DNA from: a virus
IMG/VR virus record: IMGVR_UViG_3300021598_000839
Coordinates: 1 to 21,369 of that record
DNA: 21,369 bases
Strand: one strand, 5' to 3'
Part shown: positions 5,271-20,721 of the stretch, piece by piece
Layout: each line of letters opens with the position of its first letter
How positions within the stretch are numbered: position 1 is the stretch's first letter
Program-made: the position numbers and the translations under genes
Notes under the pieces: model-generated
Databases searched by the model: none
Told to the model about the DNA's origin: nothing
Seen by the model: the letters and a program-made list of their open reading frames with translations, nothing else

Positions 5271-5486
5271 ATGACTCTCACAGTAAAATTCAAGAAAGAC
5301 CTTCAAACTCTTCGTGGTGCAGCAAATGGTGATTTTTACCTTGATGTAAAGAATCCAAAACTCTTCAAAAAAGTTCGCCGTTTTTATGAAAATGAAGGTG
5401 TAGTGTTTTCTGGTGATCCTCTGGATGATTATGAAATGCTAATGGAATATGTTCTTGCTGATCTCGAATCTGTTGAAGTGGCATGA
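5271..5486 (+). CDS. 71-residue orphan protein
   Basis: A small soluble protein with a basic N-terminal half (KFKKDLQTLRG, KNPKLFKKVRRFY) and an acidic C-terminal helix (DDYEMLMEYVLADLESVEVA). The start at ATG 5271 is about 17 bases after the expected start point of the promoter at 5220-5248, and the stop overlaps the next start (ATGATG at 5483). No domain is recognised. The short leader and strong host-type promoter suggest early expression. Confidence 0.65.
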   Translation: MTLTVKFKKDLQTLRGAANGDFYLDVKNPKLFKKVRRFYENEGVVFSGDPLDDYEMLMEYVLADLESVEVA

Positions 5487-5737
5487 TGAAAGTAGTTAGG
5501 AAACCAACTGTTCTTATGGAACGATTTCCATATCGTTACATCCAAGTGGGTACTTTAGAAATTAATGGTAAACCCGATTGTCGTATTCAAAAAGTAGACT
5601 CTTATACTGGTCGTTATCGAGATATGTATCTATGTGATAATGAAATGCAGTTAATGACGGCTATGGAAGATTTTGAATATACTAAATGGTTGGATCCTGA
5701 TACTGTTCCTTGTTACGTGAGGGACGATGATGAGTAA
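5483..5737 (+). CDS. 84-residue orphan protein
   Basis: Overlaps the previous stop by four bases and starts with two consecutive ATG codons. The protein is soluble and rich in aromatic and charged residues, with an acidic end (CYVRDDDE) and three scattered cysteines at about residues 33, 51 and 78. No family is recognised. It is probably co-translated with the 71-residue protein. Confidence 0.6.
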   Translation: MMKVVRKPTVLMERFPYRYIQVGTLEINGKPDCRIQKVDSYTGRYRDMYLCDNEMQLMTAMEDFEYTKWLDPDTVPCYVRDDDE

Positions 5738-5785: not shown

Positions 5786-6013
5786 ATGTCTAAATCTGAT
5801 TTACTTCGGTGGATTGGAAACATTCTCCTCATAATTGGTTATCAAACTATGCTATGGGGAGAATTTAAATATGGTTTAATGATAAAAGTTGTTGGAGGAT
5901 TACTCACAGTACCTTTTGCTATTAAACTTAAACTTTGGGATGTACTTTTCTTATGTGCATTCTTTGGTATTACCGAGATATCAAAGTTAACCCAACTTTT
6001 CTTAGTTTCCTAA
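5786..6013 (+). CDS. 75-residue membrane protein
   Basis: Hydrophobic throughout, with two or three possible membrane segments (about residues 10-27, 30-46 and 50-70): a short soluble start (MSKSDLLRW), then IGNILLIIGYQTMLWGEF, a Gly-rich middle and WDVLFLCAFFGITEI. No obvious ribosome binding site precedes it, and 48 bases without a gene separate it from the previous one. Function is unknown. Confidence 0.5.
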   Translation: MSKSDLLRWIGNILLIIGYQTMLWGEFKYGLMIKVVGGLLTVPFAIKLKLWDVLFLCAFFGITEISKLTQLFLVS

Positions 6014-6033: not shown

Positions 6034-6141
6034 ATGACCCTATTAGGTTTCTTGCCATTCCTTCAAAAGGCAAGTGGTGCGGATGGGACTCTCTCCCGCC
6101 TGGTTTCCAATTTCCAGTCAAAGAATTGGTGGCGAGCCTGA
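6034..6141 (+). CDS. 35-residue peptide with a good ribosome binding site
   Basis: ATG 6034 is preceded by GTGGAG (6022-6027) at suitable spacing, and the frame ends 8 bases before an intrinsic terminator. The product starts MTLLGFLPFLQKASGADG and ends QSKNWWRA, with a short amphipathic or hydrophobic start. The same frame is open back to 5935, but that extension overlaps the membrane protein gene. It may be real, but it could be only transcript leader. CTTGCC/GGCAAG inside it also forms a hairpin. Confidence 0.42.
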   Translation: MTLLGFLPFLQKASGADGTLSRLVSNFQSKNWWRA

Positions 6142-6149
6142 GTCACAGA

Positions 6150-6176
6150 GGTGGGTTGCATAAACCCACCTTTTTT
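6150..6176 (+). terminator. Intrinsic terminator before the glycan operon
   Basis: Perfect 8-bp stem GGTGGGTT (6150-6157) with AACCCACC (6163-6170), loop GCATA, followed by six T (6171-6176). It closes the small-gene region. Confidence 0.88.
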
Positions 6177-6184
6177 AGTATAAT
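6156..6184 (+). promoter_or_regulatory. Promoter overlapping the terminator, for the glycan operon
   Basis: A consensus -10, TATAAT (6179-6184), follows the T tract. The matching -35, TTGCAT (6156-6161), is poor and sits in the terminator loop, 17 bases upstream. TATATAAA (6184-6191) is also near the T4-type late -10. Either could start the operon at 6210. Confidence 0.5.
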
Positions 6185-6209: not shown

Positions 6210-7301
6210 ATGAGCGATTATAAAAAAACGGCACTTGTACTTGGTGCTGGTGGATTCATTGGAAGCCACATGGTAAAGCGTTTGAAAGCAGAGGGATATT
6301 GGGTTCGTGGTGTAGATCTCAAATATCCTGAGTTTTCTATTTCAGAAGCAGATGAATTTATTCAAGGTGACTTGCGTGACATGAGTTTTGTTCGCCGTGT
6401 TCTTGAATTCAAAGGTGAGCAAGGTAATTTTTACGCCAGTGTTCCTTATCGCTGCATTCTTCCGTTCCACGAAATCTATCAGTTTGCTGCTGATATGGGT
6501 GGTGCAGGATTCGTCTTTACTGGCGAAAATGATGCAGATATCATGCATAACTCGTCACAAATTAACCTTAATGTTCTTGAGGCACAGCGCCAACTGAATG
6601 AAACATTTGATGGTGTTGATAATGGAACTGCATGTGTTCGACCTGTTTTAGAATATCAAACCAAAATTTTCTATTCTGGATCTGCCTGTATGTATCCAGA
6701 GCATAATCAACTTGATCCAGACAATCCTGACTGCCGTGAAGAATCAGCATACCCAGCTAACCCAGATTCTGAGTATGGTTGGGAGAAGTTGTTCTCAGAG
6801 CGGTTGTTTCTCGCTTATTCTCGTAATTATGGGATCCCTGTTCGGGTTGCTAGGTATCATAATATCTTCGGACCTGAAGGAACCTGGGAAGGTGGAAGAG
6901 AGAAAGCACCTGCAGCAATCTGTCGTAAAGTAGCATATCTTCCAAAGGAAGGTGGTACAATTGATGTTTGGGGTGATGGAAAACAGACTCGTTCATTCCT
7001 CTACATTGATGAATGTATTGAAGCAACCCGCCGAATGATGGATTCTGACTTCCAAGGTCCAGTGAATATTGGTTCTGAGGAAATGGTAACTATCAATCAA
7101 CTTGTAGATATTGCTGCTAAAGTTTCTGGTAAAACTGTAGAGAAGAATCATATTGATGGTCCTCTTGGTGTTCGTGGTCGTAATTCCAATAATGATCTTA
7201 TCCGCGAAAAACTTGGTTGGGATTATTCTCAAACCTTAGAGGAAGGAATTCGTAAGACGTATTCTTGGATTAATGATCAGATCGAATCTACAAATAAGTG
7301 A
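6210..7301 (+). CDS. GDP-mannose 3,5-epimerase homologue
   Basis: This 363-residue extended SDR enzyme closely follows plant GDP-D-mannose 3',5'-epimerase, which makes GDP-L-galactose (and GDP-L-gulose) in the cytosol. Seen are the NAD motif GAGGFIGS (12-19), FAADMGG (92-98), SGSACMYPE (156-164, holding the catalytic Ser and Cys160), YGWEK (Tyr189, Lys193), RYHNIFGPEGTW (215-226), GGREKAPAA (228-236, second catalytic Lys232), GDGKQTRSF (255-263) and VRGRNSNN. Compared with the plant enzyme from memory there are two insertions, near residues 66-86 and 130-150, around the substrate region. ATG 6210 is the natural start just before the first strand, but no close Shine-Dalgarno is seen. It is the first gene of the glycan operon and is visibly less AT-rich than the genes after it. 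The specificity is inferred. Confidence 0.88.
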   Translation: MSDYKKTALVLGAGGFIGSHMVKRLKAEGYWVRGVDLKYPEFSISEADEFIQGDLRDMSFVRRVLEFKGEQGNFYASVPYRCILPFHEIYQFAADMGGAGFVFTGENDADIMHNSSQINLNVLEAQRQLNETFDGVDNGTACVRPVLEYQTKIFYSGSACMYPEHNQLDPDNPDCREESAYPANPDSEYGWEKLFSERLFLAYSRNYGIPVRVARYHNIFGPEGTWEGGREKAPAAICRKVAYLPKEGGTIDVWGDGKQTRSFLYIDECIEATRRMMDSDFQGPVNIGSEEMVTINQLVDIAAKVSGKTVEKNHIDGPLGVRGRNSNNDLIREKLGWDYSQTLEEGIRKTYSWINDQIESTNK

Positions 7302-7309
7302 ATAGTAGC

Positions 7310-8146
7310 ATGAATATTGCAGTATTAGGTTCAAGTGGTCAAGTTGGAGCATACCTGACCGAATATCTTCGTGGAAAAGGTCATACTGTCCATGAATTCG
7401 ATGTTGTGAATGGACCAGAACAAGATATGACTAGAATTCCAAATTCGTCATTGGAAATGGCGATACAAGATTCTGACTTTGTATTCTTCCTTGCATTTGA
7501 TGTTGGTGGTTCTCGTTATCTCAAGAAGTATCAACATACTTTCCAGTTTATTGATAACAATACTCGTTTGATGGCAAATGCTTTTGGATATCTTCAAAAG
7601 CATAATAAGAGATTTATCTTTGCTTCATCACAGATGAGTAACATGAGTTATTCTCCATATGGTGTGCTTAAAAATGTTGGTGAACTCTATACTAAGTCAT
7701 TGAATGGATTGATTGTTAAGTTTTGGAATGTTTATGGAATTGAAAAAGATCACGAAAAATCCCATGTCATTACTGACTTCATCCGCAAAGGTTTTGAAAC
7801 TGGTGTCATTGACATGCTTACTGATGGACAAGAAGAGCGAGAGTTTCTATACGCAGAAGACTGTTGTGAAGCATTGGAATCAATAATGAATAACTACTCC
7901 GAATTTACTAGTGAGGATGAACTTCATATTACAAGTTTCCAACCAATTAAAATTATTGATATTGCAAATGTTATTGTCGATCAATTTAAATCGATGGGAA
8001 AAGAAGTGAAAATTGTCCCTTCGCAGGAGAAAGATTCTGTTCAAATGGATAAGAAAAATAAACCAAATACTTATATCAATAAGTACTGGGTATCCAAAAC
8101 ATCTATTGAAGAGGGTATTTCTAATATAATAAAGGAGATGATTTAA
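7310..8146 (+). CDS. NAD-dependent sugar epimerase/dehydratase (SDR)
   Basis: A 278-residue extended SDR protein. GSSGQVG (7-13) is the dinucleotide-binding loop, Asp31 at the end of strand 2 points to NAD rather than NADP, and Ser106/Ser107 with YGVLK (Tyr117, Lys121) form the catalytic triad. The region LAFDVGGSRYL (61-71) replaces the usual HLAA motif. The substrate cannot be read; a nucleotide sugar is likely from the context directly after the GDP-mannose epimerase-like gene. An in-frame GTG at 7298 overlaps the previous stop. I prefer ATG 7310 because the Rossmann strand begins right there, though neither has a strong ribosome binding site. Confidence 0.8.
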   Translation: MNIAVLGSSGQVGAYLTEYLRGKGHTVHEFDVVNGPEQDMTRIPNSSLEMAIQDSDFVFFLAFDVGGSRYLKKYQHTFQFIDNNTRLMANAFGYLQKHNKRFIFASSQMSNMSYSPYGVLKNVGELYTKSLNGLIVKFWNVYGIEKDHEKSHVITDFIRKGFETGVIDMLTDGQEEREFLYAEDCCEALESIMNNYSEFTSEDELHITSFQPIKIIDIANVIVDQFKSMGKEVKIVPSQEKDSVQMDKKNKPNTYINKYWVSKTSIEEGISNIIKEMI

Positions 8147-9015
8147 TGTTAGCTTTTAATCACCTGGGAAATCTGGGCAGACTTGGCAACCAAATGTTTG
8201 AGTATGCTGCTCTGCGTGGAATAGCAGCAAAAAATAATTATGATTGGTGTATTCCACCATTCTCAGTTACTGGCATAGAAAACTACAGTCTTCATGAATG
8301 TTTCAAATTAGAATCTGTTACTGAAGATAGACAAGATATAAGAGAAGATTTTTTGCATCTTAAAGAAAGGTATTTTCATTATGATCAAGAACTTTACGAG
8401 AACTGCCCAGATAATGTAAGTCTCTATGGTTTTTTTCAATCTGAAAAATACTTCAAAGAAGTGTCCGAAGATATTAGAAAAGAATTTACATTTCTTGATT
8501 ATCATCTTGATCCCTGTTTGGAATTTATATCAGAATTTAAAAATCAAAATCCAATCTTTATTCATATAAGACGAGGTGATCCTAATCTTGTTGATCCTAG
8601 AGGGTTTAAATGGGCATATGTTAATTGCCAGGATCAACATCCTTTACAGACAATGGAATATTATTCTCAAGCACTTGATAAGTTTAATGATAATCAACCA
8701 GTTATTGTCTTTTCGGATTCTCCCGAATGGGTCGAAAGTCAAAAATTATTTAAAGGTGATAGATTTTTTATATCACAACCACAAGAAAAATATGAAGATG
8801 GATCGTATACTCCGTATACTGATTTGTGCTTGATGTCTTTGTGTTCTCATGCTATTATTGCTAATAGTTCACTTTCTTGGTGGGGAGCTTGGCTAATTAA
8901 TAATCCTAATAAAAAAGTAATCGCGCCAAAAAAATGGTTTGGTCCGTCTTATGCAGACAAAGATACTAAAGATTTGTATTGTCCAGAATGGGAGGTATTT
9001 GAGGAAACTGTATGA
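8146..9015 (+). CDS. GT11 family (alpha-1,2-fucosyltransferase-type) glycosyltransferase 1
   Basis: A 289-residue protein with all hallmark motifs of GT11: GRLGNQMFEYAALRG (11-25), HIRRGD (140-145, which binds the GDP-sugar), FSDSPEW (189-195) and ANSSLSWWGAWL (239-250). Family members use GDP-L-fucose, some related enzymes GDP-L-galactose, to form alpha-1,2 linkages. The start at ATG 8146 overlaps the previous stop (TAATG), with AAGGAG at 8132-8137. No GDP-fucose synthesis genes (Gmd, WcaG) are seen nearby but a GDP-L-galactose-type epimerase is, which makes L-galactose a plausible donor. A paralogue lies at 15555-16328. Confidence 0.9.
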   Translation: MLAFNHLGNLGRLGNQMFEYAALRGIAAKNNYDWCIPPFSVTGIENYSLHECFKLESVTEDRQDIREDFLHLKERYFHYDQELYENCPDNVSLYGFFQSEKYFKEVSEDIRKEFTFLDYHLDPCLEFISEFKNQNPIFIHIRRGDPNLVDPRGFKWAYVNCQDQHPLQTMEYYSQALDKFNDNQPVIVFSDSPEWVESQKLFKGDRFFISQPQEKYEDGSYTPYTDLCLMSLCSHAIIANSSLSWWGAWLINNPNKKVIAPKKWFGPSYADKDTKDLYCPEWEVFEETV

Positions 9016-10007
9016 AAATATTTGTAACCGGTTGTGCAGGTCTTCTTGGATCTAATTATACGCGACATTTGATTTTAAATGGTCATGATGTTATTGGTAT
9101 AGATAATCTTTCTGGTGGTTATCGAGCATTTCTACCAAAAGCAGAAAATTTTACTTTTGTAAAACTTGATCTGGAAAAAAGAAAAAAAGTTGTAGAACTG
9201 TTTGAAGAACACAGACCAGATATTCTTCTTCATTTTGCTGCATACGCTGCTGAAGGACTTTCTCCTTTTATTAGAAATTTTAATTATCGGAATAATCTTA
9301 TTTGTTCTGCAAACCTGATTAATGAATGTATTAAACATGATACAAAAATAATCTTCACTTCTAGTATGGCTGTATATGGGGAACAAGATCCACCATTTAC
9401 TGAAGATAAAAAACCACAACCAATTGACCCATATGGTATCGCTAAGTATGCTGTTGAATGTGATTTGAAATTGGCACATGAACAGTTTGGTTTGAGATAT
9501 AATATCGTAAGACCACACAATGTTCTTGGAATATATCAAAACATTTGGGACCGCTATCGTAATGTGATCGGCATTTTTATCCGCAAAACTTTGAATGGTC
9601 AACCTATTCTTGTTTATGGTGATGGAGAACAGACTCGTGCTTTCTCAGATATCAAATATTACATGCAACCTTTTGATAAACTTCTTACTGATTTTGATGG
9701 AGAAACTTTTAATATTGGCGCAGATAAGTATTTTACTTTAAATGAAGTTGCGGAAACCGTTCAAAGAATTGGTAAAAAGTATGGGTATGAAGTTCCTATT
9801 GAACATGGAGAACCCAGACATGAAGTAAAACATGCTTATTGTGATCACACAAAAGCAAAAACTATGTTAGAATTTAGAGATGAAACAAATCTCGATGAAC
9901 TAATTGAAAGTATGTTTGTTTGGGCAATGAAACAACCAAACAGAAAAGTTAAGACAATGGAGTATGAAGTTACAAAAGACATTTACGAATATTGGAAGCA
10001 AGTATGA
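9012..10007 (+). CDS. UDP-glucose 4-epimerase-like SDR
   Basis: A 331-residue extended SDR enzyme of the GalE/nucleotide-sugar epimerase type. It has GCAGLLG (7-13), Asp31 in GIDNLSGG for NAD binding, HFAAYAA (74-80), TSSMAVYGE (116-124) and the YGIAK catalytic pair Tyr141/Lys145, then RPHNVLG and VYGDGEQTRAF. GalE-like enzymes interconvert UDP-Glc/UDP-Gal or their N-acetyl or uronic forms. It could supply galactose-type donors to the transferases downstream. It overlaps the previous gene by four bases (ATGA). The exact sugar is not determinable from sequence. Confidence 0.82.
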   Translation: MKIFVTGCAGLLGSNYTRHLILNGHDVIGIDNLSGGYRAFLPKAENFTFVKLDLEKRKKVVELFEEHRPDILLHFAAYAAEGLSPFIRNFNYRNNLICSANLINECIKHDTKIIFTSSMAVYGEQDPPFTEDKKPQPIDPYGIAKYAVECDLKLAHEQFGLRYNIVRPHNVLGIYQNIWDRYRNVIGIFIRKTLNGQPILVYGDGEQTRAFSDIKYYMQPFDKLLTDFDGETFNIGADKYFTLNEVAETVQRIGKKYGYEVPIEHGEPRHEVKHAYCDHTKAKTMLEFRDETNLDELIESMFVWAMKQPNRKVKTMEYEVTKDIYEYWKQV

Positions 10008-10696
10008 TTGACGAATTTATTTTTCCCGAATGTAATCGGTATTTTAAAAAAGATCTTGATAATCTAAGATATAAGTTTGATGGTGTAGAAACAATTGAGA
10101 ATAACTATTCTCAAGCTTTTCAGGATATGTTTGCTCTTAGCATTCTTAATGGAAAGAAAAATGGAACCTATGTTGAGATAGGTGGAGATCATGCTGTAAT
10201 TATTAGCAACACCTATCTGCTAGAATCTAAATTTGATTGGACAGGCGTTTCTTTCGAAATTGATCCAGAAAAAGTTAATGGATATAATTCGATTAGAAAA
10301 AACAAATGTGTATGTGCAAATGCTCTAGAGGTTGACTTTAAAAAGATTTTTGAAGAAAGAAATCTTCCAAAGCAAATTGATTATCTTCAGGTAGATATAG
10401 AACCTGCTTGGCAAACATTGAATGCTTTAAAGGCTATTCCACTTGATGAATACAGATTTTCTGTTATTACTTATGAAACCGATCTTTATAAAGACGGTCC
10501 AGAACCACAAGAAGAAGCAATGCAACTTCTTACCTCATATGGATATGAATTGGTAGTTAGAAATGTTGCAAATTTGAACAATCCTTATGAAGATTGGTAT
10601 ATTGATCCAAAAGCAGTTGATAGTGAAATTGTAAAACTATTCAAACAACCTGGTAGGTTGTCTAAAGAAAGCACTGATTGTATATTTGGAAATTAA
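10004..10696 (+). CDS. FkbM-type methyltransferase 1
   Basis: 230 residues with the FkbM methyltransferase signature: YSQAFQDMFALSI, then NGTYVEIGG (a variant SAM-binding motif I), SNTYLLE and GVSFEID (binding the ribose), then YLQVDIEP and FSVITYETD at the end of later strands. In this family such enzymes O-methylate sugars or natural products. Here a hydroxyl on the phage-encoded glycan is the likely target. The start at ATG 10004 overlaps the previous stop, with GGAAG (9994-9998) upstream. The glycine-rich motif has IGGDH instead of the common IGAxDG, so the site may be altered. Confidence 0.75.
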   Translation: MIDEFIFPECNRYFKKDLDNLRYKFDGVETIENNYSQAFQDMFALSILNGKKNGTYVEIGGDHAVIISNTYLLESKFDWTGVSFEIDPEKVNGYNSIRKNKCVCANALEVDFKKIFEERNLPKQIDYLQVDIEPAWQTLNALKAIPLDEYRFSVITYETDLYKDGPEPQEEAMQLLTSYGYELVVRNVANLNNPYEDWYIDPKAVDSEIVKLFKQPGRLSKESTDCIFGN

Positions 10697-10697
10697 A

Positions 10698-11324
10698 ATG
10701 ATTATTAGTCTTGGGTCTATAATTAGAAAATACGACATCAATATTTCTGGTGTTATCCATGTTGGTGGACACATTGGACAAGAAATGCAGTCTTATAAAG
10801 ACAACAATATTAATAATCTTATTGTCTTTGAACCTCAAAAAGAACCATTTGCAAAATTGTCTAAAGTTGCAAAATCAATGAATTTTGAAAATTTAGAATT
10901 GCATAATGTAGCATTAGGGACTGAAAACAAAACCGTAGAAATGCATTGTAATATTGACGGATTGTGTAGTTCTATTTTAAAACCAAAACATGTTCTGGTT
11001 CAATATCCAGATATTACTTTTGATTCTACTGAAACTGTAGAAATGGTTACAATGGATTCTATAATTCCAGAGGATCATTCTTACAATTTTATTAATATGG
11101 ATACCCAAGGGTATGAACTCGAAGTTTTAAAAGGAGCTACTACAACTCTTAATAAAATTGATTATGTGTATACTGAAGTTAATAATACTGAAGTTTACGA
11201 AAATAATGCTATGATAGAAGATATTGATGAATTTCTAAAATCATATAATATGACCAGAGTTGAAACTGATTGGATAGGTGGAACTTGGGGAGATGCATTC
11301 TATATTAATAAGGACCTTATATGA
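10698..11324 (+). CDS. FkbM-type methyltransferase 2
   Basis: 208 residues. VIHVGGHIGQE (motif I, near residues 19-29), NLIVFEPQ (acidic Glu at the end of strand 2), the MDSII/FINMDTQGYELEVLKGA block and DYVYTEVN are standard FkbM features. This subfamily differs clearly from the preceding methyltransferase, so the operon encodes two dissimilar enzymes that could methylate two positions or two sugars. It starts one base after the previous stop at ATG 10698, and its end overlaps the next start (ATGA at 11321). Confidence 0.85.
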   Translation: MIISLGSIIRKYDINISGVIHVGGHIGQEMQSYKDNNINNLIVFEPQKEPFAKLSKVAKSMNFENLELHNVALGTENKTVEMHCNIDGLCSSILKPKHVLVQYPDITFDSTETVEMVTMDSIIPEDHSYNFINMDTQGYELEVLKGATTTLNKIDYVYTEVNNTEVYENNAMIEDIDEFLKSYNMTRVETDWIGGTWGDAFYINKDLI

Positions 11325-12109
11325 GTATACTTTACACTATCAGTAATTGGTACGGGAGACTTGGAAATAATATCCAACAGATTTGTAATGGAATAATTTT
11401 TTCAGAAATTAATGATTCTGGATTTTTTACTCCTCCTCACGAACTAATTGATCAAATTATTTTCAATCAGAGAAATCAAACAATGGTTAGGCCCTCTAGG
11501 TTTTTCCATTATAATACTGAAAATAAAGATTTTGAGATTGATATAAATTATCTCTATAAAAATATGAGAAGGGTTGCAAAGGAGTATGTAATTAATAAAT
11601 TTAAATTCTCGATAAAGGATCCTTTTGATGAAGATACTTTAGTTATTCATATCCGTAGTGGTGATATTTTTGCACATGAACATAATCCACCTCATGACTA
11701 TGTTCCAAATCCTCTGGTATACTATTTAAATCTTATTGAAGAATATGAAAAAGTTATAGTTGTTACTGAACCTGACAACTATAATCCAATCATAGATGAA
11801 TTGAGAAAAAATAATAAAGTTACAATTCAATCTTCTAATGTTTCTGATGATTTTTCTACTCTTTTGAGAGCAAAAAATTTAGCTTCCTCTGGTGTAGGAA
11901 CTTTTGCAGTTGCAGCTGCTCTGTGTTCAAATAATATTAAAAAATTTTACTGTACAAATTTATATCTTGATGAGCACTTAAATCCGGAAATGTTATATGA
12001 AACTGATATATCTGTTTATATGATGGAGTTAAATGACTATATTAATCTTAAAGAATGGAAAAACAATGAAGAACAACGTAAATTCATTTTGGAGTATAAG
12101 ATTAAATGA
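11321..12109 (+). CDS. Distant GT11-like glycosyltransferase
   Basis: 262 residues with the two key elements of the GT11/GT23 fucosyltransferase fold: YGRLGNNIQQI (11-21) and VIHIRSGD (108-115). Later, ASSGVGTFAVAAAL near residues 189-202 stands where GT11 enzymes have the Ser-rich ANSSxSWWG motif, but without the Trp pair. It therefore probably uses a GDP-sugar but belongs to a divergent branch. It overlaps both neighbours by four bases. Linkage and acceptor are unknown. Confidence 0.7.
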   Translation: MSILYTISNWYGRLGNNIQQICNGIIFSEINDSGFFTPPHELIDQIIFNQRNQTMVRPSRFFHYNTENKDFEIDINYLYKNMRRVAKEYVINKFKFSIKDPFDEDTLVIHIRSGDIFAHEHNPPHDYVPNPLVYYLNLIEEYEKVIVVTEPDNYNPIIDELRKNNKVTIQSSNVSDDFSTLLRAKNLASSGVGTFAVAAALCSNNIKKFYCTNLYLDEHLNPEMLYETDISVYMMELNDYINLKEWKNNEEQRKFILEYKIK

Positions 12110-12963
12110 AAATTTTTGATTCCGTAATTTTCTTTAACGAATTAGATCTTCTGGAAATTAGGTTAAATGTACTTAATGATTTTGTGGATTATTTTGTAAT
12201 CACAGAGTCTCCTTGGACAGTTAGTGGAAATTCTAAACCACTTTTTTATCTTGAGAACAAGGAAAGATTTTCTAAGTTTAATCACAAGATTATTCATAAT
12301 ATTACCGAAGAAATTCCAAATGATTATTCCGACTATATGGAAAAGCGGAAATATCATACTCCAATGAAAGAAAATGATAATGGAGGAAATCCATATTATC
12401 AATATCCTATTAGATTTCAAAGAGCAATATTTAATAGAGATTCCAGCATTTATGGTGCAATAAAGGGTGGAATAAACAACGAAGATATTATAATTACGAG
12501 TGATGTTGATGAAGTTCCAAATCCTTTAATTTTTGAAAACTTAGATTGGTTTGATAAAAATAATCATTATGTGTGCCTTCAAAGAGCATTCTATTACAAA
12601 TTGAACTATCTTTATCAAGAAAATTGGATGGGATCTAGAATTTGTAGTTTTGAAAAACTGTCAGAATCTTCTGTTGATATGCTTAGAAACAATCACAAAG
12701 ATTCTTATAAAATTGAAGACGGCGGATGGCATTGGAGTTTCTTTGGTGATGCTGATAATTTTAGAGCAAAACTTTCTGCATATGAACATACCGAAAACAA
12801 TACAGAAGAAATTACTTCTACTGCTGAGAAGAAAATAGAAGAAGGTATTGATCCTTTTGGTAGACCAATTCAAATAACAACCGTGCCTATTGATAGTTCA
12901 TACCCAGAATATATCATTAATAATCAAGAAAAATATTCTAATTTTATTAAACCATGGAATTGA
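12106..12963 (+). CDS. GT17-like glycosyltransferase
   Basis: 285 residues resembling the GT17 family (eukaryotic MGAT3, beta-1,4-GlcNAc transferase). The start FDSVIFFNELDLLEIRL (4-20), FVITESPWTVSGNSKPL (30-46), the metal-binding SDVDEVP (132-138) with its DxD, and GGWHWSFFG near 207-215 are the characteristic blocks. It would use a nucleotide sugar with a divalent cation; bacterial and phage members are poorly characterised. It overlaps the previous gene by four bases and the next by ten. Confidence 0.82.
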   Translation: MKIFDSVIFFNELDLLEIRLNVLNDFVDYFVITESPWTVSGNSKPLFYLENKERFSKFNHKIIHNITEEIPNDYSDYMEKRKYHTPMKENDNGGNPYYQYPIRFQRAIFNRDSSIYGAIKGGINNEDIIITSDVDEVPNPLIFENLDWFDKNNHYVCLQRAFYYKLNYLYQENWMGSRICSFEKLSESSVDMLRNNHKDSYKIEDGGWHWSFFGDADNFRAKLSAYEHTENNTEEITSTAEKKIEEGIDPFGRPIQITTVPIDSSYPEYIINNQEKYSNFIKPWN

Positions 12964-13904
12964 TTGAGGGTATAGAGCTTTCAAAATTATGTGATTATTC
13001 CTTCGGAGATCAATCTGGTCAATGGGGGAATATTTTTACATCTTTTATGAAAGATGCAAATTTATTAAATTTAGAATTTGTAGAGAAGGTTTTTGAAATT
13101 AAAAAGAGCAGAGATTATATGACTCTGTTCATTGATAATATTCGTTTATATAAAAGGCATATTGTAGAGGTTAAAGATTCTGATAGACCTTATGTTGAAG
13201 GTCTTATGGAAAAGAGTGATCTGTTAAGATTATGTTCTAATTTTCCTGATATGAGATTTATCATTTTTACTAATCTTGAAGATACTCCTATTGATGAGCA
13301 TATTTTTGAATCAATACCAGATAATGTTCTTTGCATTAGTGCGGTAAATGCTATTGCTAACGGAGGAAAGGTAATTCCAGCTCCTTATGGTTTGCAGAGA
13401 GCAATGAGTCAGAACGATAGTAGAATACTTGATATAAAGAGTTCTATGAGACTTTTGCCAAAAAATCCGCCTGGACTTTTATATGTTAGTCATAGCGAAT
13501 CTACAAATATTGAAAGGGTAGGCATTAAAGGTATTTTTAAAAATGAATCATGGGCAGAAGTGCATGAAGAAAGAGTTCCTTATTCTGTATTTTTATATAA
13601 TCTTAGTCAGTCTAAGTTTATGATTTGTCCTATCGGAAATGCTATCGATTGTCATAGGAATTGGGAAGTTCTTTATATGAGAAGAGTCCCAATAATAAAA
13701 AATCATCCTTATCTGAATAAATTATTCAATGGATATCCAGTGTTGTTTGTGGATGATTATAAAGAAGTGACGAAGCAACTTTTAGAAGACAATGAAGATT
13801 TGTTTATTAAAGCACAGACCATGGATTTATCTCAATTGACACTTCCAACTTTTTTTGATAATATTGTAAATAAAGCTTTAAGTGGAGAATATGTTAGTAA
13901 ATGA
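12954..13904 (+). CDS. Exostosin-like (GT47-type) glycosyltransferase
   Basis: 316 residues. The C-terminal half carries CPIGNAIDCHRNWEVLYMRR followed by VPII (225-248), the pattern of GT-B enzymes where a His-Arg-x-Trp-Glu motif binds the nucleotide sugar in the exostosin (GT47) and related families. The N-terminal half has no clear motif. The SYVSHSES-like stretch (LLYVSHSEST, 175-184) marks the beginning of the second Rossmann domain. It begins ten bases before the previous gene ends. The donor sugar is unknown. Confidence 0.7.
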   Translation: MELIEGIELSKLCDYSFGDQSGQWGNIFTSFMKDANLLNLEFVEKVFEIKKSRDYMTLFIDNIRLYKRHIVEVKDSDRPYVEGLMEKSDLLRLCSNFPDMRFIIFTNLEDTPIDEHIFESIPDNVLCISAVNAIANGGKVIPAPYGLQRAMSQNDSRILDIKSSMRLLPKNPPGLLYVSHSESTNIERVGIKGIFKNESWAEVHEERVPYSVFLYNLSQSKFMICPIGNAIDCHRNWEVLYMRRVPIIKNHPYLNKLFNGYPVLFVDDYKEVTKQLLEDNEDLFIKAQTMDLSQLTLPTFFDNIVNKALSGEYVSK

Positions 13905-14877
13905 AATGTATCTTGGGTCTGGTCTTGGTAATCAGATTTGGGCATCTGTTGTAACCCGTATCATTGCAGAAAAATTGGGATATGAATATGGGATTAAAGG
14001 CAAAGAACTTTGGAAAGGAAATGGATGGATGAAATATTTTTGGGGTAAAGAAGTTATTGGTGGATCTGGTCCAGATGGAGGACCTCCTGATACTCTCCCA
14101 GAAGGAATTGAATTTTGGTATCGCGAACGACAAGAAGGACATTATAAGGAAGGTCGTCATCAACATGATATGAACCCAATTGACCATGGACTTTTCTTCC
14201 TTCCTGATAATACTAAAATCGATGGAACATTTCAAAATATGTTATACATCGAAGATCGTCGTGATGATATTAGAGTGTGGTGCAAAGTTGATGAAGATAA
14301 AGTTATTACTGACTACTCTGCAGATGATATTTGTGTAATTCATTTTCGTGGTGGAGATTATTCCACTGGATTTTCCTTTCTGCCTCCCCATTACTACCAA
14401 ATGGCAATCGAAAGAATGAGGGATAGGAGAAGAGATATGAAATTTGTGATCGTTACTGACGATCTAGAACTAGCAAGAAAACACATTCCCGGAATTGAAG
14501 TTGTTGGTGCTGCAGTTTCTAATGAACCAGGAGGACCAGATTATAAAATCGGTTGGTATCAAATGAAAGGAGGACCACTATCAATTGACTATACTATTTT
14601 GCACACAGCAAAAAATGTAATTATGTCTTCCTCTACGTTTTCATTTTGGCCTGTTTGGTTGTCTACAGAACTTAAAAATATTATTGTTCCAATGTATTGG
14701 TTTGATTGGAATACCTCTGATGGTTGGTGGAGACCTGTAGATTCAATTGTTCCTGAGTGGACTTATATGGATAGAGATGGTAAAGTTAAATTGGGTGAAG
14801 ACTGTTGGCAAGAATACCGTAAATATAGTCATGTAATTAATCCTGAAACTTCTGGTGTTTTGGTTAAATATGAATAA
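13891..14877 (+). CDS. GT11-like glycosyltransferase, divergent, with a large insertion
   Basis: 328 residues. GSGLGNQIWASVVTRIIAE (9-27) matches the GT11 N-terminal motif, CVIHFRGGDY (148-157) the HxRxxD donor-binding motif and MSSSTFSFWPVWLS (245-258) the C-terminal Ser/Trp motif. A Gly/Trp/Pro-rich stretch (about 40-110) between the first two is longer than usual. I choose ATG 13891; GTG 13882 and ATG 13906 are alternatives, and GGAG at 13884-13887 is rather close. It overlaps the previous gene by 14 bases. It probably uses a GDP-sugar, like the other GT11-type enzymes of the cluster. Confidence 0.75.
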   Translation: MLVNEMYLGSGLGNQIWASVVTRIIAEKLGYEYGIKGKELWKGNGWMKYFWGKEVIGGSGPDGGPPDTLPEGIEFWYRERQEGHYKEGRHQHDMNPIDHGLFFLPDNTKIDGTFQNMLYIEDRRDDIRVWCKVDEDKVITDYSADDICVIHFRGGDYSTGFSFLPPHYYQMAIERMRDRRRDMKFVIVTDDLELARKHIPGIEVVGAAVSNEPGGPDYKIGWYQMKGGPLSIDYTILHTAKNVIMSSSTFSFWPVWLSTELKNIIVPMYWFDWNTSDGWWRPVDSIVPEWTYMDRDGKVKLGEDCWQEYRKYSHVINPETSGVLVKYE

Positions 14878-15547
14878 GATTAGTCTTCCAAATGTAACTC
14901 TTTTTTGCATTTCTTCTAACAATATTCCAGGTGCTCTCTATGCTCTGCAAAAAAGTATGGAGGGTATATCCTTTGGAAAAGTAAAATTAATTACCCACGA
15001 GTATCCTGGTAATCTTCCTGAAGGAATTGAGTTTTCTAAATGCTATAAGATAGAATCAATCCATGATTATAATTATTATTGCATCTATAATCTCACTAAA
15101 CATATTGACACTGATTATTGTCTACTTGTTCAACCGGATGGGTATGTTATTAGACCGTGGAACTGGGACAACACCTGGTTTAACTACGACTACATTGGAG
15201 CACCATGGAGATGGGAAGAGGCGTCATTTGTGACTCCATTTGGCGAACATATTTCAGTTGGTAATGGTGGGTTTAGTTTTAGAAGTAAAAAACTTTTAGA
15301 TGTTCCTACCAAAGTTCAAGTACCTTGGGATGTGAATAAAGGAAATTTTTATAAGCATTTTGGGTATGGGTCAACTTCAGAAGACGGAAATATATGTGTT
15401 CATAACAGACATATATACGAAGAACAAGGATGCAAGTTTGCTCCTATAGAAGTTGCAGCAAAATTCTCTAAAGAAAGACATATATCTCCATATCATGACG
15501 GCATAGAGACTTTTGGATTTCATTTTTTTGTTCAAGATATTATTTGA
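14870..15547 (+). CDS. DUF5672-like putative glycosyltransferase
   Basis: 225 residues with the layout of DUF5672 proteins. NVTLFCISSNN opens the protein, a helix with an ALYALQKS pattern follows, then CLLVQPDGYVIRPWNW (84-99), YDYIGAPW (106-113) and VGNGGFSFRSKKLL (130-143). These resemble GT-A folds in which the QxDG loop replaces the DxD. Such genes usually sit among glycosyltransferases, as here. Biochemical function is not established, so transfer activity is inferred. It overlaps the previous stop by eight bases. Confidence 0.72.
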   Translation: MNKISLPNVTLFCISSNNIPGALYALQKSMEGISFGKVKLITHEYPGNLPEGIEFSKCYKIESIHDYNYYCIYNLTKHIDTDYCLLVQPDGYVIRPWNWDNTWFNYDYIGAPWRWEEASFVTPFGEHISVGNGGFSFRSKKLLDVPTKVQVPWDVNKGNFYKHFGYGSTSEDGNICVHNRHIYEEQGCKFAPIEVAAKFSKERHISPYHDGIETFGFHFFVQDII

Positions 15548-15554
15548 GGTAAAC

Positions 15555-16328
15555 ATGATTGGATATAATCACTTAGGTCGTAATGGAAGACTTGGAAATC
15601 AAATGTTTCAATATGCGGCATTGAAAGGAATTGCTTCAAAGCATAATTATGATTATTGTATTCCCCCAAGCGAATTTAAAAATGAAAATATCGATCATCA
15701 ATTATTTGAAGCTTTTGAACTTTCATCTTTAAAGCATGTTGAAATGCTTGGTGCAGTTTATACTGAGGAAAAATCTTTTACATTTGATGAAGATTTATTT
15801 GAGAATTGTTCTGATAATGTAAATCTATATGGTTTTTTCCAAACTGAAAAATATTTCAAGCATATTGAAAATCAAATTCGGAAAGATTTCATTTTTGTAA
15901 ATGATATTTGGAATCCTTGTAAGGAAGTGTTTACTTTTGATGAAGCTTTATCTCTTCATATCCGCAGAACAGATTATGTGGAGAAGCAAAATTATCATCC
16001 ATTGTGCCCTCTAGAATATTATGAAGAAGCATTAAATAAAATGCCAAAGGATATTCCAGTTCTCATTTTTTCCGATGATCCAGAATGGTGCAAAAAACAA
16101 GAACTCTTTCAACCAGATAGATTCCTCATTTCAGAATCTAATAATAATCTTGTTGACATGTGTTTAATGACTATGTGCAATTATCACATTATTGCAAATA
16201 GTTCTTTTAGTTGGTGGGGAGCATGGCTCTCTGATAGTAAGAAGATTATTGCACCTAAAGTTTGGTTTGGACCTAGTGCAAATCTTGATGATAGTGATCT
16301 TGTTCCAGAATCTTGGGAAAGAATATAA
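15555..16328 (+). CDS. GT11 family (alpha-1,2-fucosyltransferase-type) glycosyltransferase 2
   Basis: 257 residues and a clear paralogue of the enzyme at 8146-9015. It starts with GRLGNQMFQYAALKG (11-25), then has HIRRTD (135-140), FSDDPEW (172-178) and ANSSFSWWGAWL (214-225), and the two share patches such as NYDxCIPP and VxLYGFFQxEKYFK. It is shorter by about 30 residues, mostly between the second and third motifs. ATG 15555 has GAGGT at 15546-15550; the frame upstream overlaps the previous gene and is not used. The two copies have diverged considerably at the DNA level, so they likely act on different acceptors. Confidence 0.9.
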   Translation: MIGYNHLGRNGRLGNQMFQYAALKGIASKHNYDYCIPPSEFKNENIDHQLFEAFELSSLKHVEMLGAVYTEEKSFTFDEDLFENCSDNVNLYGFFQTEKYFKHIENQIRKDFIFVNDIWNPCKEVFTFDEALSLHIRRTDYVEKQNYHPLCPLEYYEEALNKMPKDIPVLIFSDDPEWCKKQELFQPDRFLISESNNNLVDMCLMTMCNYHIIANSSFSWWGAWLSDSKKIIAPKVWFGPSANLDDSDLVPESWERI

Positions 16329-17089
16329 TGTCTTGTAAATTTTCTATTGCGATTCCTACCCATGATCGGGGGGAAGTTGGTACTGTTTGGTTGAGGGAAC
16401 TTTTTGAGTCTTTAAAAATTCAAACTTTTAGAGATTTTGATATTGTAATTTCTGATCAAAGTAAAAATGATAGTATATTGGATGTTTGTAAAGACTATTC
16501 TGAAGACTTCGAATTTACGTATATAAAGTATCAAGGATCTGTTCCTTGCGAAAATATAAATATTGCTCTAGAAAATTGTTCTGGAGACATTATTAAAATA
16601 ATGTTTTCAGATGATATTTTTGTTAGAGAAGACGCTCTTGATATAATTCAAAAAGAATATGAAAAAACTAATTGTAAATGGGCATTCAGTGGATTTTGTG
16701 GTACAAAAGATGGAAAAACTTTTTATGACCATAAAGTTCCACAATGGACTGACTATATGTTAGAGGGTCGAAATCTTTTAAGTAGTCCTTCAGTCGTTTC
16801 TTTTCTAAATGAAGTTAAAGTAGATTTTGATGAAAATTTAAAACTGCTATTGGACACTGATTTTTATCATAGAATGAGATGGGAAAATGGTCTCCCACAC
16901 ATTATAGAAGATGTACTAGTTGCTAATAGAGATCATGACAATAGAATAAGCAGTCACACTACTTCACAATATGATGCTGTTATTGAACACCCAGAAGGAA
17001 ATTGGTTAATTAATACCAGAGAATATAATTATATTCAAGAAAAATATAAGGAATTTGTACAAACAAGAAGATATCCAGATGAAAAATGA
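16328..17089 (+). CDS. GT2 family glycosyltransferase
   Basis: 253 residues. FSIAIPTHDRGE (5-16) is the GT2 nucleotide-binding start, FDIVISDQSKND (37-48) carries the conserved Asp, and GDIIKIMFSDDIF (86-98) has the SDD metal-binding motif (94-96). LLLDTDFYHRMRWENG follows, matching the acceptor-side region. It would be an inverting, metal-dependent enzyme adding a hexose or similar sugar. The start ATG 16328 overlaps the previous stop by one base with GGGAAAG upstream. The specific sugar is unknown. Confidence 0.85.
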   Translation: MSCKFSIAIPTHDRGEVGTVWLRELFESLKIQTFRDFDIVISDQSKNDSILDVCKDYSEDFEFTYIKYQGSVPCENINIALENCSGDIIKIMFSDDIFVREDALDIIQKEYEKTNCKWAFSGFCGTKDGKTFYDHKVPQWTDYMLEGRNLLSSPSVVSFLNEVKVDFDENLKLLLDTDFYHRMRWENGLPHIIEDVLVANRDHDNRISSHTTSQYDAVIEHPEGNWLINTREYNYIQEKYKEFVQTRRYPDEK

Positions 17090-17900
17090 TCTTTCTAAAG
17101 CAACATTTATAATACCAATTCAAATTGAATCTGAAGATAGACTTAGAAATGTTATAACAACGACAGCTTTTCTATTGGAAAATTTTGATACTAATATCAT
17201 TATAAAAGAAGTCGATACTACCTCGAAGTTTCAAGACGTTGCTCTACCAATATTAAAAGATGTAGTAGAATCTGATATTAATATTCTTCATATTTTTGAG
17301 CATTCAAAAGGATCTGAATTCCATAGACAGAAAATTTTGAATGAAATGATATCACAATCTAAAACTAAAATCGTAGTAAATTATGATTGCGATGTTCTAC
17401 TTCCATTGGATTCATATCTAAGTGCATATAACAAAATATTGAATGAAGAGTGTGATATTGTATACCCTTATGGTCAAGGAATGTATCAAAGACAGGTTAA
17501 AGCAACTGATGAAATTGTTTCTGCTTTTCTAGAAACTTCTGATTATAAAATTCTTGATAGTCATTCATCGGAGCATACCTCTGATTTTGGATGGGTTCAG
17601 TTTTTTGATCGGCAGGTCTATATTGATGGCGGAATGGAAAACGAAAACTTTGTGGCATATGCCCCAGAAGATAAAGAGAGATTTTACAGATTTTCTACGT
17701 TAGGTTATAATATTTGTAGAATCAAAAATTTAGTATATCATTTAGAACATGCTAGAGGAATTAATTCTTGGTTTAACAACCCTCATATGAATTCTAATAA
17801 TTTAGAATGGGAAAAAATTAGCACAATGGACAAAGACCAACTAATCGAGTATTATTCAAAACAGGATTATTTAAAAAAGTATAACAATGGACAAAAATAA
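17079..17900 (+). CDS. Galactosyltransferase-like GT-A enzyme
   Basis: 273 residues. ATFIIPIQIESEDRLRNV opens a GT-A fold, KIVVNYDCDVLLP has the DxD-type DCD (103-105), and IDGGMENENFVAYAPEDKER (182-201) resembles the acceptor and metal loop (GGxxExxxxxxxED) of beta-1,4-galactosyltransferases and chondroitin-synthase-type enzymes. It is followed by a His-rich VYHLEHARG. The start at ATG 17079 overlaps the previous gene by 11 bases. It may transfer galactose or GalNAc, but assignment rests on motif layout only. Confidence 0.7.
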   Translation: MKNDLSKATFIIPIQIESEDRLRNVITTTAFLLENFDTNIIIKEVDTTSKFQDVALPILKDVVESDINILHIFEHSKGSEFHRQKILNEMISQSKTKIVVNYDCDVLLPLDSYLSAYNKILNEECDIVYPYGQGMYQRQVKATDEIVSAFLETSDYKILDSHSSEHTSDFGWVQFFDRQVYIDGGMENENFVAYAPEDKERFYRFSTLGYNICRIKNLVYHLEHARGINSWFNNPHMNSNNLEWEKISTMDKDQLIEYYSKQDYLKKYNNGQK

Positions 17901-18675
17901 ATCTATATTCAAATTAAAAAATATTGGACCAATATACTATATTAATCTGGACGGACAACCAGAAAGAGATCAGTATATGAAATCTCAATTTGAATATTGG
18001 AATGTTACCAATTATAATAGAGTTTCTGCTTATGACGGAAGGGATGATGATCTGAGTGATATTATATCAGGAAAATATCCCGACAATATGACATCTGGGG
18101 AAATTGGTTGTGTAACGTCTCATTTGAAAGCTATCAGGCATTGGTACGAAAACTCAGATTCTCCATATGCTATTATCATGGAGGATGATTGTAATTTAGA
18201 TCTTGTTCGATACTGGAATTTTACTTGGGATGATTTTTATGCTCATATTCCCTACGATTGGGATGTGGTTCAGATCGCTATTATTTGCACAGGTGATATT
18301 CATGTAAAACTTCATAAAAGATTTGTCAACGATTTTTCTACTGCGTGTTATCTTATTACTCGCCATCATGCAGAAAAACTTTTAAAATTTCATGTTAGAG
18401 GAGAAAAGTATAAACTCGATAATGGTTGTAAACCACGACCTGTTGCAGATGATTTGATTTATAATACCGGAAATACTTACTCAATACCTCTTTTATTGTA
18501 TAGAATTGAATTGGGTTCTTCAATTCATCCTGAGCATATAGATGCAATTCATAGAGGAAATTATGAAGCATTAAATCAATTTTGGAGTCAGCGTGGATCT
18601 GATATCGATATAAAAGAGTATATGGATTATGATCCATATCTCGGCAGAATAACCCAAAATTCTTCTGCTCAATGA
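17887..18675 (+). CDS. GT25 family (LPS-type) glycosyltransferase
   Basis: 262 residues. PIYYINLDGQPER (15-27) is the typical GT25 opening, GEIGCVTSHLKAIRHW (71-86) the second conserved block, and AIIMEDDC (95-102) supplies the acidic metal-binding site. STACYLITRHHAEKLL matches the later block. GT25 enzymes, such as bacterial lipooligosaccharide galactosyltransferases, use UDP-sugars in the cytoplasm. It overlaps the previous gene by 14 bases and is the last gene of the glycan operon. There is no terminator before the porin promoter that follows it. Confidence 0.87.
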   Translation: MDKNKSIFKLKNIGPIYYINLDGQPERDQYMKSQFEYWNVTNYNRVSAYDGRDDDLSDIISGKYPDNMTSGEIGCVTSHLKAIRHWYENSDSPYAIIMEDDCNLDLVRYWNFTWDDFYAHIPYDWDVVQIAIICTGDIHVKLHKRFVNDFSTACYLITRHHAEKLLKFHVRGEKYKLDNGCKPRPVADDLIYNTGNTYSIPLLLYRIELGSSIHPEHIDAIHRGNYEALNQFWSQRGSDIDIKEYMDYDPYLGRITQNSSAQ

Positions 18676-20365: not shown

Positions 20366-20385
20366 CTTTAGATTTCCTATATAAT
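20357..20385 (+). promoter_or_regulatory. Promoter for hli, with its -35 inside the terminator
   Basis: TTGTTT (20357-20362), a 17-base spacer and a consensus TATAAT (20380-20385). The start codon at 20412 is about 20 bases past the expected start point. Confidence 0.55.
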
Positions 20386-20411
20386 TGTGTTGTAAATCTT
20401 TACAAAAGATA

Positions 20412-20621
20412 ATGACTGTAACAAAAAACGAGTTCGGGCAAATGAATATGTTTGCCAAAGAACCTTCGATGTATATGACTAAAGAAGATCTTGAGCGTTA
20501 TGGTATTGAACCCTATGCAGAAAAAGCGGAGAAAATGAATGGACGCTGGGCAATGGTCGGTTTTGTTGCTGGGATTATTTCTTACACTATCACTGGCAAC
20601 TTCTTCTTCGGCATCTTCTGA
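20412..20621 (+). CDS. hli: High-light-inducible protein (Hli) 1
   Basis: 69 residues with the single-helix chlorophyll-binding motif of the LHC superfamily, AEKMNGRWAMVGFVAGII (45-62 region): the Glu and Asn-Gly-Arg bind pigment and pair helices. The N-terminal half is a polar extension. Hli proteins associate with photosystem II and chlorophyll synthesis in the thylakoid membrane and dissipate excess light energy. Cyanophages commonly carry them to keep photosynthesis running during infection. I start at ATG 20412; the frame upstream passes through the promoter. Ferredoxin follows about 100 bases downstream. Confidence 0.93.
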   Translation: MTVTKNEFGQMNMFAKEPSMYMTKEDLERYGIEPYAEKAEKMNGRWAMVGFVAGIISYTITGNFFFGIF

Positions 20622-20628
20622 CAATTGA

Positions 20629-20657
20629 TTGACAATGACTTCAACTATCTTTACAAT
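20629..20657 (+). promoter_or_regulatory. Strong promoter for the ferredoxin gene
   Basis: TTGACA (20629-20634), a 17-base spacer and TACAAT (20652-20657). A start near 20664 would leave a leader of about 60 bases before the ferredoxin ATG at 20725. Confidence 0.55.
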
Positions 20658-20721
20658 TACTAGTGTCGCCTTCTTAGTTTTGTTGGCGCACTCAGTTAAT
20701 CAACTCTCAGAAACTTACTAA
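20635..20721 (+). CDS. Possible 28-residue membrane peptide
   Basis: Open frame ATG 20635 to TAA 20719-20721, encoding a hydrophobic helix (TIFTITSVAFLVLLAHSVNQ). It fills the gap between hli and ferredoxin and looks like the tiny subunits of photosynthetic complexes, but I can match it to none. A strong promoter covers its first eight codons, so it may be a chance frame. Confidence 0.28.
   Translation: MTSTIFTITSVAFLVLLAHSVNQLSETY

Follow-up and report, generated by a model that had tools for sequence, protein, structure and literature searches.

Which activated sugar feeds the transferases of a phage glycan cassette that opens with a gene for GDP-mannose 3,5-epimerase (GME)? The question is raised by a virus record of 21,369 bases (IMG/VR record IMGVR_UViG_3300021598_000839), which was analysed at its full length and is called the window here. 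The window comes from a T4-like cyanophage, is probably a fragment and holds 23 tRNA genes. The named records nearest to it are mostly Synechococcus phages, and the annotated ones are T4-like. The cassette runs from the ATG of GME at position 6210 to a last stop at 18675 and comprises 15 open reading frames (ORFs), which lie head to tail on the + strand and touch or overlap. The original prediction, made from the letters of the window alone, had placed the cassette between the same two positions and counted 14 genes, a number that has to be corrected. In the reading favoured here, to which a probability of roughly 0.55 is given, the cassette makes GDP-L-galactose through GME, and its transferases of family GT11 build this sugar into a glycan, in a cargo slot that recurs among related phages.

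The epimerase and its cargo slot

The first gene of the cassette (6210..7301) is, to judge from its sequence, an intact GME. Its best matches in the Protein Data Bank (PDB) are GMEs, namely 2c59 (E 1.8e-82), presumably the Arabidopsis enzyme, and 8sg0 (E 1.6e-80), and the next protein that is not a GME follows at 3.2e-21. The features given for GM35E in the accessible part of PMC6678494 are GxxGxxG, a catalytic Ser, YxxxK, Cys, Lys and a stabilising Arg. Mapped through the alignment to 2c59, this set (GxxGxxG, Ser158, Cys160, Tyr189, Lys193, Lys232 and Arg324) is complete in each of the 98 phage copies and 78 cellular copies examined, all of which were gathered by likeness to GME, so that their conservation is no independent sample. 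The PDB margin and the presence of every listed residue bear out the prediction that the gene carries the catalytic set of a GME. MfGM35E of Methylacidiphilum, as described in that part of PMC6678494, shares the same set; it has been characterised, whereas the phage GME is known from sequence and, where it aligns with 2c59, is longer by about 40 residues. A role of the gene as GDP-L-fucose synthase was rejected at 82.9 of 500 bits. Relatives at E 1e-20 are present in 37 phage records, comprising 29 Synechococcus phages, two Prochlorococcus phages, one cyanophage and five marine single-cell records. In the viral contig collection at least 580 GME stretches were confirmed out of 600 candidates, and at least two further contigs (L111, L112) carry a GME identical to that of the window.

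Comparison of these loci indicates that the slot is modular and holds GME, the GDP-L-fucose enzymes Gmd and Fcl, or sometimes both, behind two small conserved ORFs. In the window the two ORFs are a homologue of T4-GC249 (5271..5486, + strand), which forms the upstream edge of the slot, and a homologue of T4-GC250 (5483..5737, + strand), recognised by comparing the loci of relatives. The downstream edge is formed by hli, with a weak Pfam match, and the ferredoxin gene petF, assigned by Pfam (20385..21018, + strand). GC249 occurs in 21 of 25 named-phage loci; three of the others (L014, L015, L022) hold 3 kb upstream only, and L018 has GC250 alone. GME is preceded by one or other of these ORFs at 14 of the 17 loci of named GME phages, the other three reaching only 3 kb upstream, and GC249 is upstream in all eight loci of phages that have no GME. 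The slot contains Gmd and Fcl in P-SSM2, S-SRM01, S-CAM7, ACG-2014f, DSL-LC02, DSL-LC03 and S-SKS1, and GT11 in B23. Both hli and petF were found in five of the 25 loci (L006, L007, L011, L104, L105), most others ending earlier; in S-CAM7 (L106) a tail-fibre gene follows the cargo instead of hli and petF. Two contigs labelled as cellular, L023 (Euryarchaeota TMED129) and L027 (Rhodobacteraceae NAT686), hold the slot ORFs, GME and the wcaG RNA described below, and are probably mis-binned phage DNA.

The two donor modules seldom meet among the named phages. Gmd was scored with TIGR01472 (cut-off 415 bits) and Fcl with NF047922 (cut-off 500 bits). Above the cut-off, gmd occurs in one of the 17 GME-phage records, S-SCSM1, and in seven of the eight other phage records with GT11 or gmd that lack GME; GT11 is present in 17 of 17. 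Some TIGR01472 match is seen in 13 of the 17 records, those of Bellamy and SynMITS9220M01 reaching 164-165 of 415 bits and not being counted. None of the 17 passes the Fcl cut-off, S-SCSM1 reaching 455. The contigs compared were the best 80 of at least 580 GME stretches and the best 80 of at least 575 Gmd stretches; they were ordered by how closely they resemble the GME of the window or the Gmd of S-SCSM1, a choice that under-samples contigs with both modules in one set and over-samples them in the other. Among those that extend 5 kb or more downstream and 2 kb or more upstream and are distinct at 97%, Gmd and Fcl are found in 0 of 37 GME contigs, GME in three of 47 Gmd contigs (S-SCSM1-like), and Fcl in 47 of 47 Gmd contigs. 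GC249 lies upstream in 62 of the 80 GME and 65 of the 80 Gmd contigs. In the window, three short-chain dehydrogenase/reductases (SDRs) were scanned and none was Gmd or Fcl above cut-off, the top scores being 21.9 bits against 415 for Gmd and 82.9 against 500 for Fcl. The earlier statement that GDP-fucose genes are missing thus holds for the 21,369 bases. Gmd and Fcl do occur elsewhere in the complete relative S-SCSM1, which the prediction had named as a finding that would speak against it; the other 16 of the 17 GME-phage records are without gmd above the cut-off.

GT11 enzymes and the donor sugar

Three ORFs pass the curated cut-off of 23.9 bits for GT11 (Pfam PF01531): GT11 (a) at 8146..9015 (4e-24, 85.8 bits), GT11 (b) at 13882..14877 (7.9e-11, 42.2 bits) and GT11 (c) at 15513..16328 (1.1e-25, 90.9 bits). 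A fourth had been proposed, the ORF at 11321, which gives no Pfam match. A GT11 tree was made of 120 rows, including the three of the window; out of 146 ORFs it keeps those of 220 to 360 residues and excludes near copies as well as those from cellular loci. On this tree the donor label changes 10 times for GME and nine times for Gmd, compared with 37.7 and 35.3 changes when labels are shuffled, and none of 500 shuffles is as low. The clade of GT11 (a) comes from GME loci in 11 of 11 cases, that of GT11 (b) in 16 of 17 and that of GT11 (c) in five of five. Control trees were made of genes that flank or share the loci, leaving out loci with both donors or neither, as well as near copies. Their observed and shuffled changes are 17 and 27.3 for GC249, 16 and 23.4 for GC250, 9 and 13.7 for Dps, 5 and 7.9 for GT25, and 3 and 5.6 for the porin. 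Divided by the shuffled figure, the observed number of changes comes to about 0.26 for GT11 and to 0.54-0.68 for the controls; the Dps, GT25 and porin trees are better resolved and smaller (44, 23 and 27 rows). This sorting supports donor specificity of the transferases, and with it GDP-L-galactose as the probable donor of the window GT11s.

Several observations weigh against this reading. GT11 enzymes are known for GDP-L-fucose, and that donor could come from most hosts, since 195 of the 300 Prochlorococcus-family genomes that served as the host sample have gmd above the cut-off. The control trees, too, show clustering of the donor label, with 0 to 22 of 500 shuffles as low; the GC249 and GC250 trees have 71 and 80 columns only, which is not enough for well-resolved trees, all trees are quick ones, and the GT11 (b) clade is flagged for long branches. 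The sorting of GT11 by donor may come partly from joint transfer of linked genes. Among the wcaG RNA matches listed, 44 contigs have 3 kb downstream of the RNA; in this set GME occurs in 27, Gmd in 12, either in 35 and both in four. Three more of them (L280, L323, L332) hold GME with Fcl and no detected Gmd, so that seven of the 27 GME contigs also contain Gmd or Fcl. Finally, homologues of the second SDR of the cassette (SDR2) lie 3' of GME in two Prochlorococcus records and 3' of Fcl in P-SSM2, and hence pair with both modules. A strict exclusion of GME and Gmd was rejected: four contigs with both compare with about 7.4 expected if the two were independent, a modest deficit. Replacement of one module by the other is common, not strict, because the RNA-sampled contigs include both together.

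The GDP-L-galactose model of the original prediction is partly supported, namely in the identity of GME and in the GT11 transferases that follow it. Its reasoning from absent GDP-fucose genes is a weak argument alone, because the window is a fragment and gmd is widespread in the host family. The model is better backed by the 16 GME phages without gmd above the cut-off, by the replacement of modules in the slot and by the sorting of GT11. According to this model, the GT11 enzymes, and perhaps that encoded at 11321, would transfer L-galactose rather than L-fucose. Other transferases, including a GT114-like enzyme whose known relative xylosylates L-fucose, would extend the chain, and FkbM enzymes would methylate it. 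The phage population might then hold alternative L-galactose and L-fucose coats through a modular slot, with expression set at the cassette head by the wcaG RNA, a terminator and a promoter-like element.

Target and identity of the sugar

The glycan is most likely destined for the outer envelope of the infected host. The cassette adjoins a full-length outer-membrane porin gene of the OprB/SLH type (18773-20296, Pfam), in the gap between the cassette and hli, which fits envelope remodelling. Among named phages, full-length relatives of this porin occur only in two S-SRM01 records, and among contigs in 34 of 80 with Gmd and nine of 80 with GME. Decoration of the phage particle, on tail fibres or capsid, is less likely, yet it is a serious possibility. 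It is favoured by the gene at 12954..13904, which encodes a GT114-like glycosyltransferase related to the beta-xylosyltransferase A075L of chlorovirus PBCV-1. A075L adds xylose at O4 of L-fucose and helps to glycosylate the chlorovirus capsid protein, according to the accessible part of PMC11571054. The profile match (1.3e-31) covers the C-terminal domain only, the acceptor domain of A075L with the catalytic Asp73 being N-terminal. The donor-site residues Arg158, Arg208 and Asn202 of A075L correspond to Arg188, Arg235 and Asn229 in the 12954 family and are invariant in 12 of 12 rows. By analogy, L-galactose may be the acceptor of this enzyme. A second point for the particle is found in S-B43 (L022), where the C-terminal part of GME only is present, directly 3' of a tail-fibre-like gene, in consequence of a rearrangement or an assembly error.

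A different explanation leaves GME to another branch of the same glycan and lets the GT11 enzymes draw on GDP-L-fucose from the host or from phage genes outside the fragment. It is judged unlikely, though it has substantial points in its favour: the frequency of gmd in the host family, the coexistence of GME, Gmd, Fcl and GT11 in S-SCSM1, and the seven RNA-sampled GME contigs that also carry Gmd or Fcl. On the other side, Gmd and Fcl occur together in all 47 Gmd contigs, which would be needless if the host supply were enough, and the GT11s of GME phages form largely separate subfamilies. GT11 is present in 10 of 101 host-family genomes; it was not found in five genomes, that of L025 included, in a search without a positive control, the same-family search of 101 having given the 10. 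GME at E 1e-80 was detected in one of 300 host-family genomes, which is the seed genome. Given this count, most hosts would gain from the phage a sugar for which they have no GME route of their own.

GME does occur in four Prochlorococcus records (L024, L025, L026, L028), whose contigs are read as host DNA, judged by eye from their other genes. In L025 and L026 a homologue of SDR2 follows GME. The next gene in L025 is GMP_PMI (690.9 bits, cut-off 373), a manC gene whose product makes GDP-mannose, and an ORF of like size stands at this position in L026. GME and SDR2 thus appear as a pair shared with the host, and GDP-mannose is a plausible substrate. In L024, GME adjoins a nucleotide-sugar dehydrogenase. 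On the GME tree, phage and Prochlorococcus copies fall in one clade (99/86), inside which are contigs of metagenome-assembled genomes labelled Pelagibacteraceae and Kordia; the base of the tree is unresolved, and the direction of transfer is not given by it. The GME of L024 (Prochlorococcus AG-409-M05, 7980-9071) stands apart from the other Prochlorococcus copies, and a separate acquisition is possible.

The final sugar might also be other than L-galactose, if GME acted mainly as a C5-epimerase and produced GDP-L-gulose, or if SDR2 converted its product. This is somewhat more doubtful than a fucose supply from outside the cassette. SDR2 (7298..8146, Pfam Epimerase) is 64% identical to the P-SSM2 gene 3' of Fcl and 64-66% identical to Prochlorococcus genes. 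It occurs in 17 of the 37 distinct GME contigs with enough flank and, as noted, behind GME in two Prochlorococcus records, which agrees with a conversion step. None was detected in the other 20 contigs, however, and since a homologue also follows Fcl in P-SSM2, the step is probably common to both sugars.

That the sugar genes are mere filler for headful packaging, an idea left open in the accessible part of PMC3037559 and in keeping with cargo that varies widely among phages, is highly improbable, since the catalytic residues of GME are invariant in the 98 phage copies, gene order is conserved in contigs such as L157, L167, L120, L163 and L179 (nearly the complete order of the window in L157 and L167), and the nine cassette genes measured are under purifying selection, with dN/dS of 0.04-0.19 when the window is set against the closest relatives that differ from it (27 comparisons, three for each gene), ratios that are rough because dS exceeds 1 in many comparisons.

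The head of the cassette

The region before GME carries the wcaG RNA (RF01761), an orphan cis-regulatory RNA, at 6043..6143 on the + strand (97.8 bits with the covariance model, gathering threshold 42). In relatives 97.1% of cells are paired, 16 of 24 pairs have changed on both sides, and covariation is 0.445 compared with 0.191 in shuffled and at most 0.118 in slid alignments, all values coming from an alignment fitted to the model. A 35-codon ORF over the RNA was rejected as coding, since its lengths differ by non-multiples of 3 and the RNA covaries. A 75-aa ORF (5786..6013, + strand) often lies just 5' of the RNA and recurs in 39 of 80 GME and 34 of 80 Gmd contigs. By eye, a degenerate second RNA core (hairpin, GGTGGAGTCAA..TGACCC, hairpin) is seen 5' of the wcaG RNA within 6020-6143 and seemingly shares a stem with it; tandem wcaG matches occur in L202, L203, L235 and S-CAM7, and a tandem arrangement is possible.

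The wcaG RNA was found in 10 of 17 named GME-phage records, nine above gathering, being absent or undetected in the other seven, and in six of eight GME-less ones, five above gathering. Some 30 kb separate it from GME in S-B43 and S-B05, and in S-B43 it is on the other strand. With a model built from 11 copies and scanned at E 0.01 over the contigs, it is present in 54 of 80 GME and 65 of 80 Gmd contigs, every time on the cassette strand. The idea that the RNA is specific to GME was rejected, as 57 of 65 Gmd and 45 of 62 GME contigs with GC249 upstream have it. None was seen at E 1 at the host GME loci L024, L025, L026 and L028, and none in 201 host-family genomes, in a search where no positive control matched. 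Of the 44 RNA-sampled contigs that extend 3 kb beyond the RNA, 35 lead to GME or Gmd within 6 kb, as do 18 of the 24 that extend 5 kb. Both Gmd and GME lie behind the RNA in L294, L295, L296 and L335; together with L280, L323 and L332, which have Fcl and GME there, these contigs make up a second class in addition to S-SCSM1.

Directly 3' of the RNA, in the gap before GME, lies an intrinsic terminator (6147..6173, + strand), recognised from a scan of the region and from the leaders of relatives. Such an element stands directly 3' of the RNA in 41 of 42 distinct GME leaders and 40 of 42 distinct Gmd leaders, compared with 22 of 1680 random stretches; this count covers 51 of 54 GME and 51 of 65 Gmd RNA matches, the weakest being left out, and its random control is not exactly repeatable. 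In the window itself the scan found one terminator compared with 1.1 expected in shuffles of the region, which is not significant alone. A promoter-like element (TTGCAT, 17 nt, TATAAT; 6156..6184, + strand), seen by comparison of leaders, overlaps the terminator. Its first hexamer matches the consensus at three of six positions, and the element is absent from the promoter scan list. In 31 of 54 GME leaders, 29 of them with TATAAT, the terminator overlaps a promoter-like pair of hexamers set exactly 17 nt apart, and 12 further elements lie directly 5' of GME by reading of the list, some of the contigs being near copies. Over 1.10 Mb there are 60 such elements on the cassette strand and 10 on the other. 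If the promoter is used, the RNA would not head the cassette mRNA; it would stand at the end of a transcript from upstream and control read-through.

It has also been considered that the slot is a phage serotype locus, in which an L-sugar donor module and its own GT11s are swapped as units behind an RNA gate that senses GDP-mannose or a GDP-L-sugar. This extended proposal is speculative and rather improbable. If it were true, the cassette would be switched by the host supply of GDP-mannose, the substrate of both GME and Gmd; GDP-mannose and GDP-L-sugars are the one type of metabolite that the two modules share. Nine of the 44 RNA-sampled contigs lack both GME and Gmd within 6 kb, which counts against GDP-mannose as the ligand. 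Those nine lead into hli or porin (L279, L314), GT11 (L293, L329, L346), another SDR (L273) or, in three cases, unidentified genes.

Related clusters and remaining genes

The claim that no described phage system has this combination was too strong, since S-SCSM1 has been published with GME, Gmd, Fcl and fucosyltransferases (PMC9602691, accessible part). S-SCSM1 shares with the window a GME of 62% identity, GT11, methyltransferase and glycosyltransferase genes and the upstream ORFs, as well as an annotated wcaG RNA upstream and hli-petF downstream. It differs in having Gmd and Fcl directly 5' of GME and in its wcaG RNA, which scores 37.2, under the gathering threshold of 42. The accessible text of PMC9602691 lists its genes singly, and donor replacement and GT11 sorting were not found there. 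Lipopolysaccharide (LPS) gene clusters near hli03 in S-SSM7, S-SM2 and P-SSM2 were described in 2010, with their function left open in the accessible part of PMC3037559. They occupy the same slot near hli as the window cassette. The GMEs of S-SM2 and S-SSM7 are 80% and 73% identical to that of the window, and P-SSM2 has SDR2; the cargo of the three differs from that of the window, P-SSM2 using Gmd and Fcl. The surface polysaccharide cluster of Prochlorococcus AG-347-J14 (L025) has GME (72%) and SDR2 (64%) adjacent and in the same order as the window. It differs in its seemingly chromosomal genes, in GMP_PMI and in an exopolysaccharide sugar transferase, and no wcaG RNA was found there. The cyanophage origin of wcaG RNA and its association with exopolysaccharide and high-light genes are noted in PMC2864571; the near-constant terminator and the link to GME and Gmd heads, counted here, were not found in the accessible part of that paper. 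Within the open-licence literature searched, what appears to be new is the replacement of donors in the slot, the sorting of GT11 enzymes by donor, the host pair of GME and SDR2 next to manC, and the head of RNA and terminator with its counts.

If the L-galactose reading is correct, LPS-type clusters of cyanophages would be sugar-coat cassettes that are modular and under selection; the transferase could be predicted from the donor enzyme, and most picocyanobacterial hosts would have no GME route to L-galactose of their own. The long-open function of viral sugar genes would become accessible to tests of superinfection, of grazing and of the response of wcaG RNA, described in 2010.

The cassette and the region just upstream of it contain several elements beyond those of the original prediction, namely the SDRs at 7298 and 9012, the GT114-like gene at 12954, the DUF5672 gene at 14855, and the wcaG RNA with its terminator. 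SDR3 (9012..10007) is a GalE-like epimerase (PF01370 4.7e-45; PDB 4zrm, UDP-glucose 4-epimerase, 3.5e-41). Of two FkbM methyltransferases that had been proposed, that at 10686..11324 is above the cut-off (PF05050 1.1e-15; TIGR01444 1.7e-21), and that at 9992..10696 remains below it (18.0 of 22.7 bits, PF05050). In the family of the latter PF05050 is matched by nine of 13 members (best 7.2e-6), and its predicted model has a methyltransferase fold, consistent with an S-adenosylmethionine (SAM)-dependent enzyme of distant FkbM type.

The protein encoded at 11321..12109, the supposed fourth GT11, has neither a Pfam match nor a meaningful PDB sequence match, and within its family PF01531 is matched by only two of 12 proteins (best E 0.038). 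Its AlphaFold model has a pLDDT of 90. By VIA-align the top 16 rows are fucosyltransferases (FUT8, NodZ, AtFUT1; Z 10.8-9.9), with rmsd 3.7-4.5 over 181-215 residues, and heptosyltransferases come close after (Z 9.7). Foldseek returned no hit at E <=0.001 for the model and ranked the heptosyltransferase TibC first. The protein is accordingly modelled as a GT-B enzyme, by VIA-align nearest to fucosyltransferases, which it resembles by fold only, and it is not placed in GT11.

The assignments of GT17 (12106..12963, PF04724 4.6e-30), GT2 (16313..17089, PF00535 1.2e-11) and GT25 (17887..18675, PF01755 7.3e-14), the last gene of the cassette, agree with the Pfam matches. The protein at 17055..17900 is GT-A-like, with weak similarity to GT2 and galactosyltransferases, PF00535 being matched by six of 12 family members (best 0.0051) and PF02709 by three of 12 (best 1.9e-6). 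The DUF5672 protein (14855..15547, PF18922 4e-18) is glycosyltransferase-like by context only. Far upstream of the cassette, the window carries a ferritin-like gene of Dps type (2577-3089), relatives of which occur in S-SRM01 and, out of 80 contigs of each kind, in 26 with GME and 37 with Gmd.

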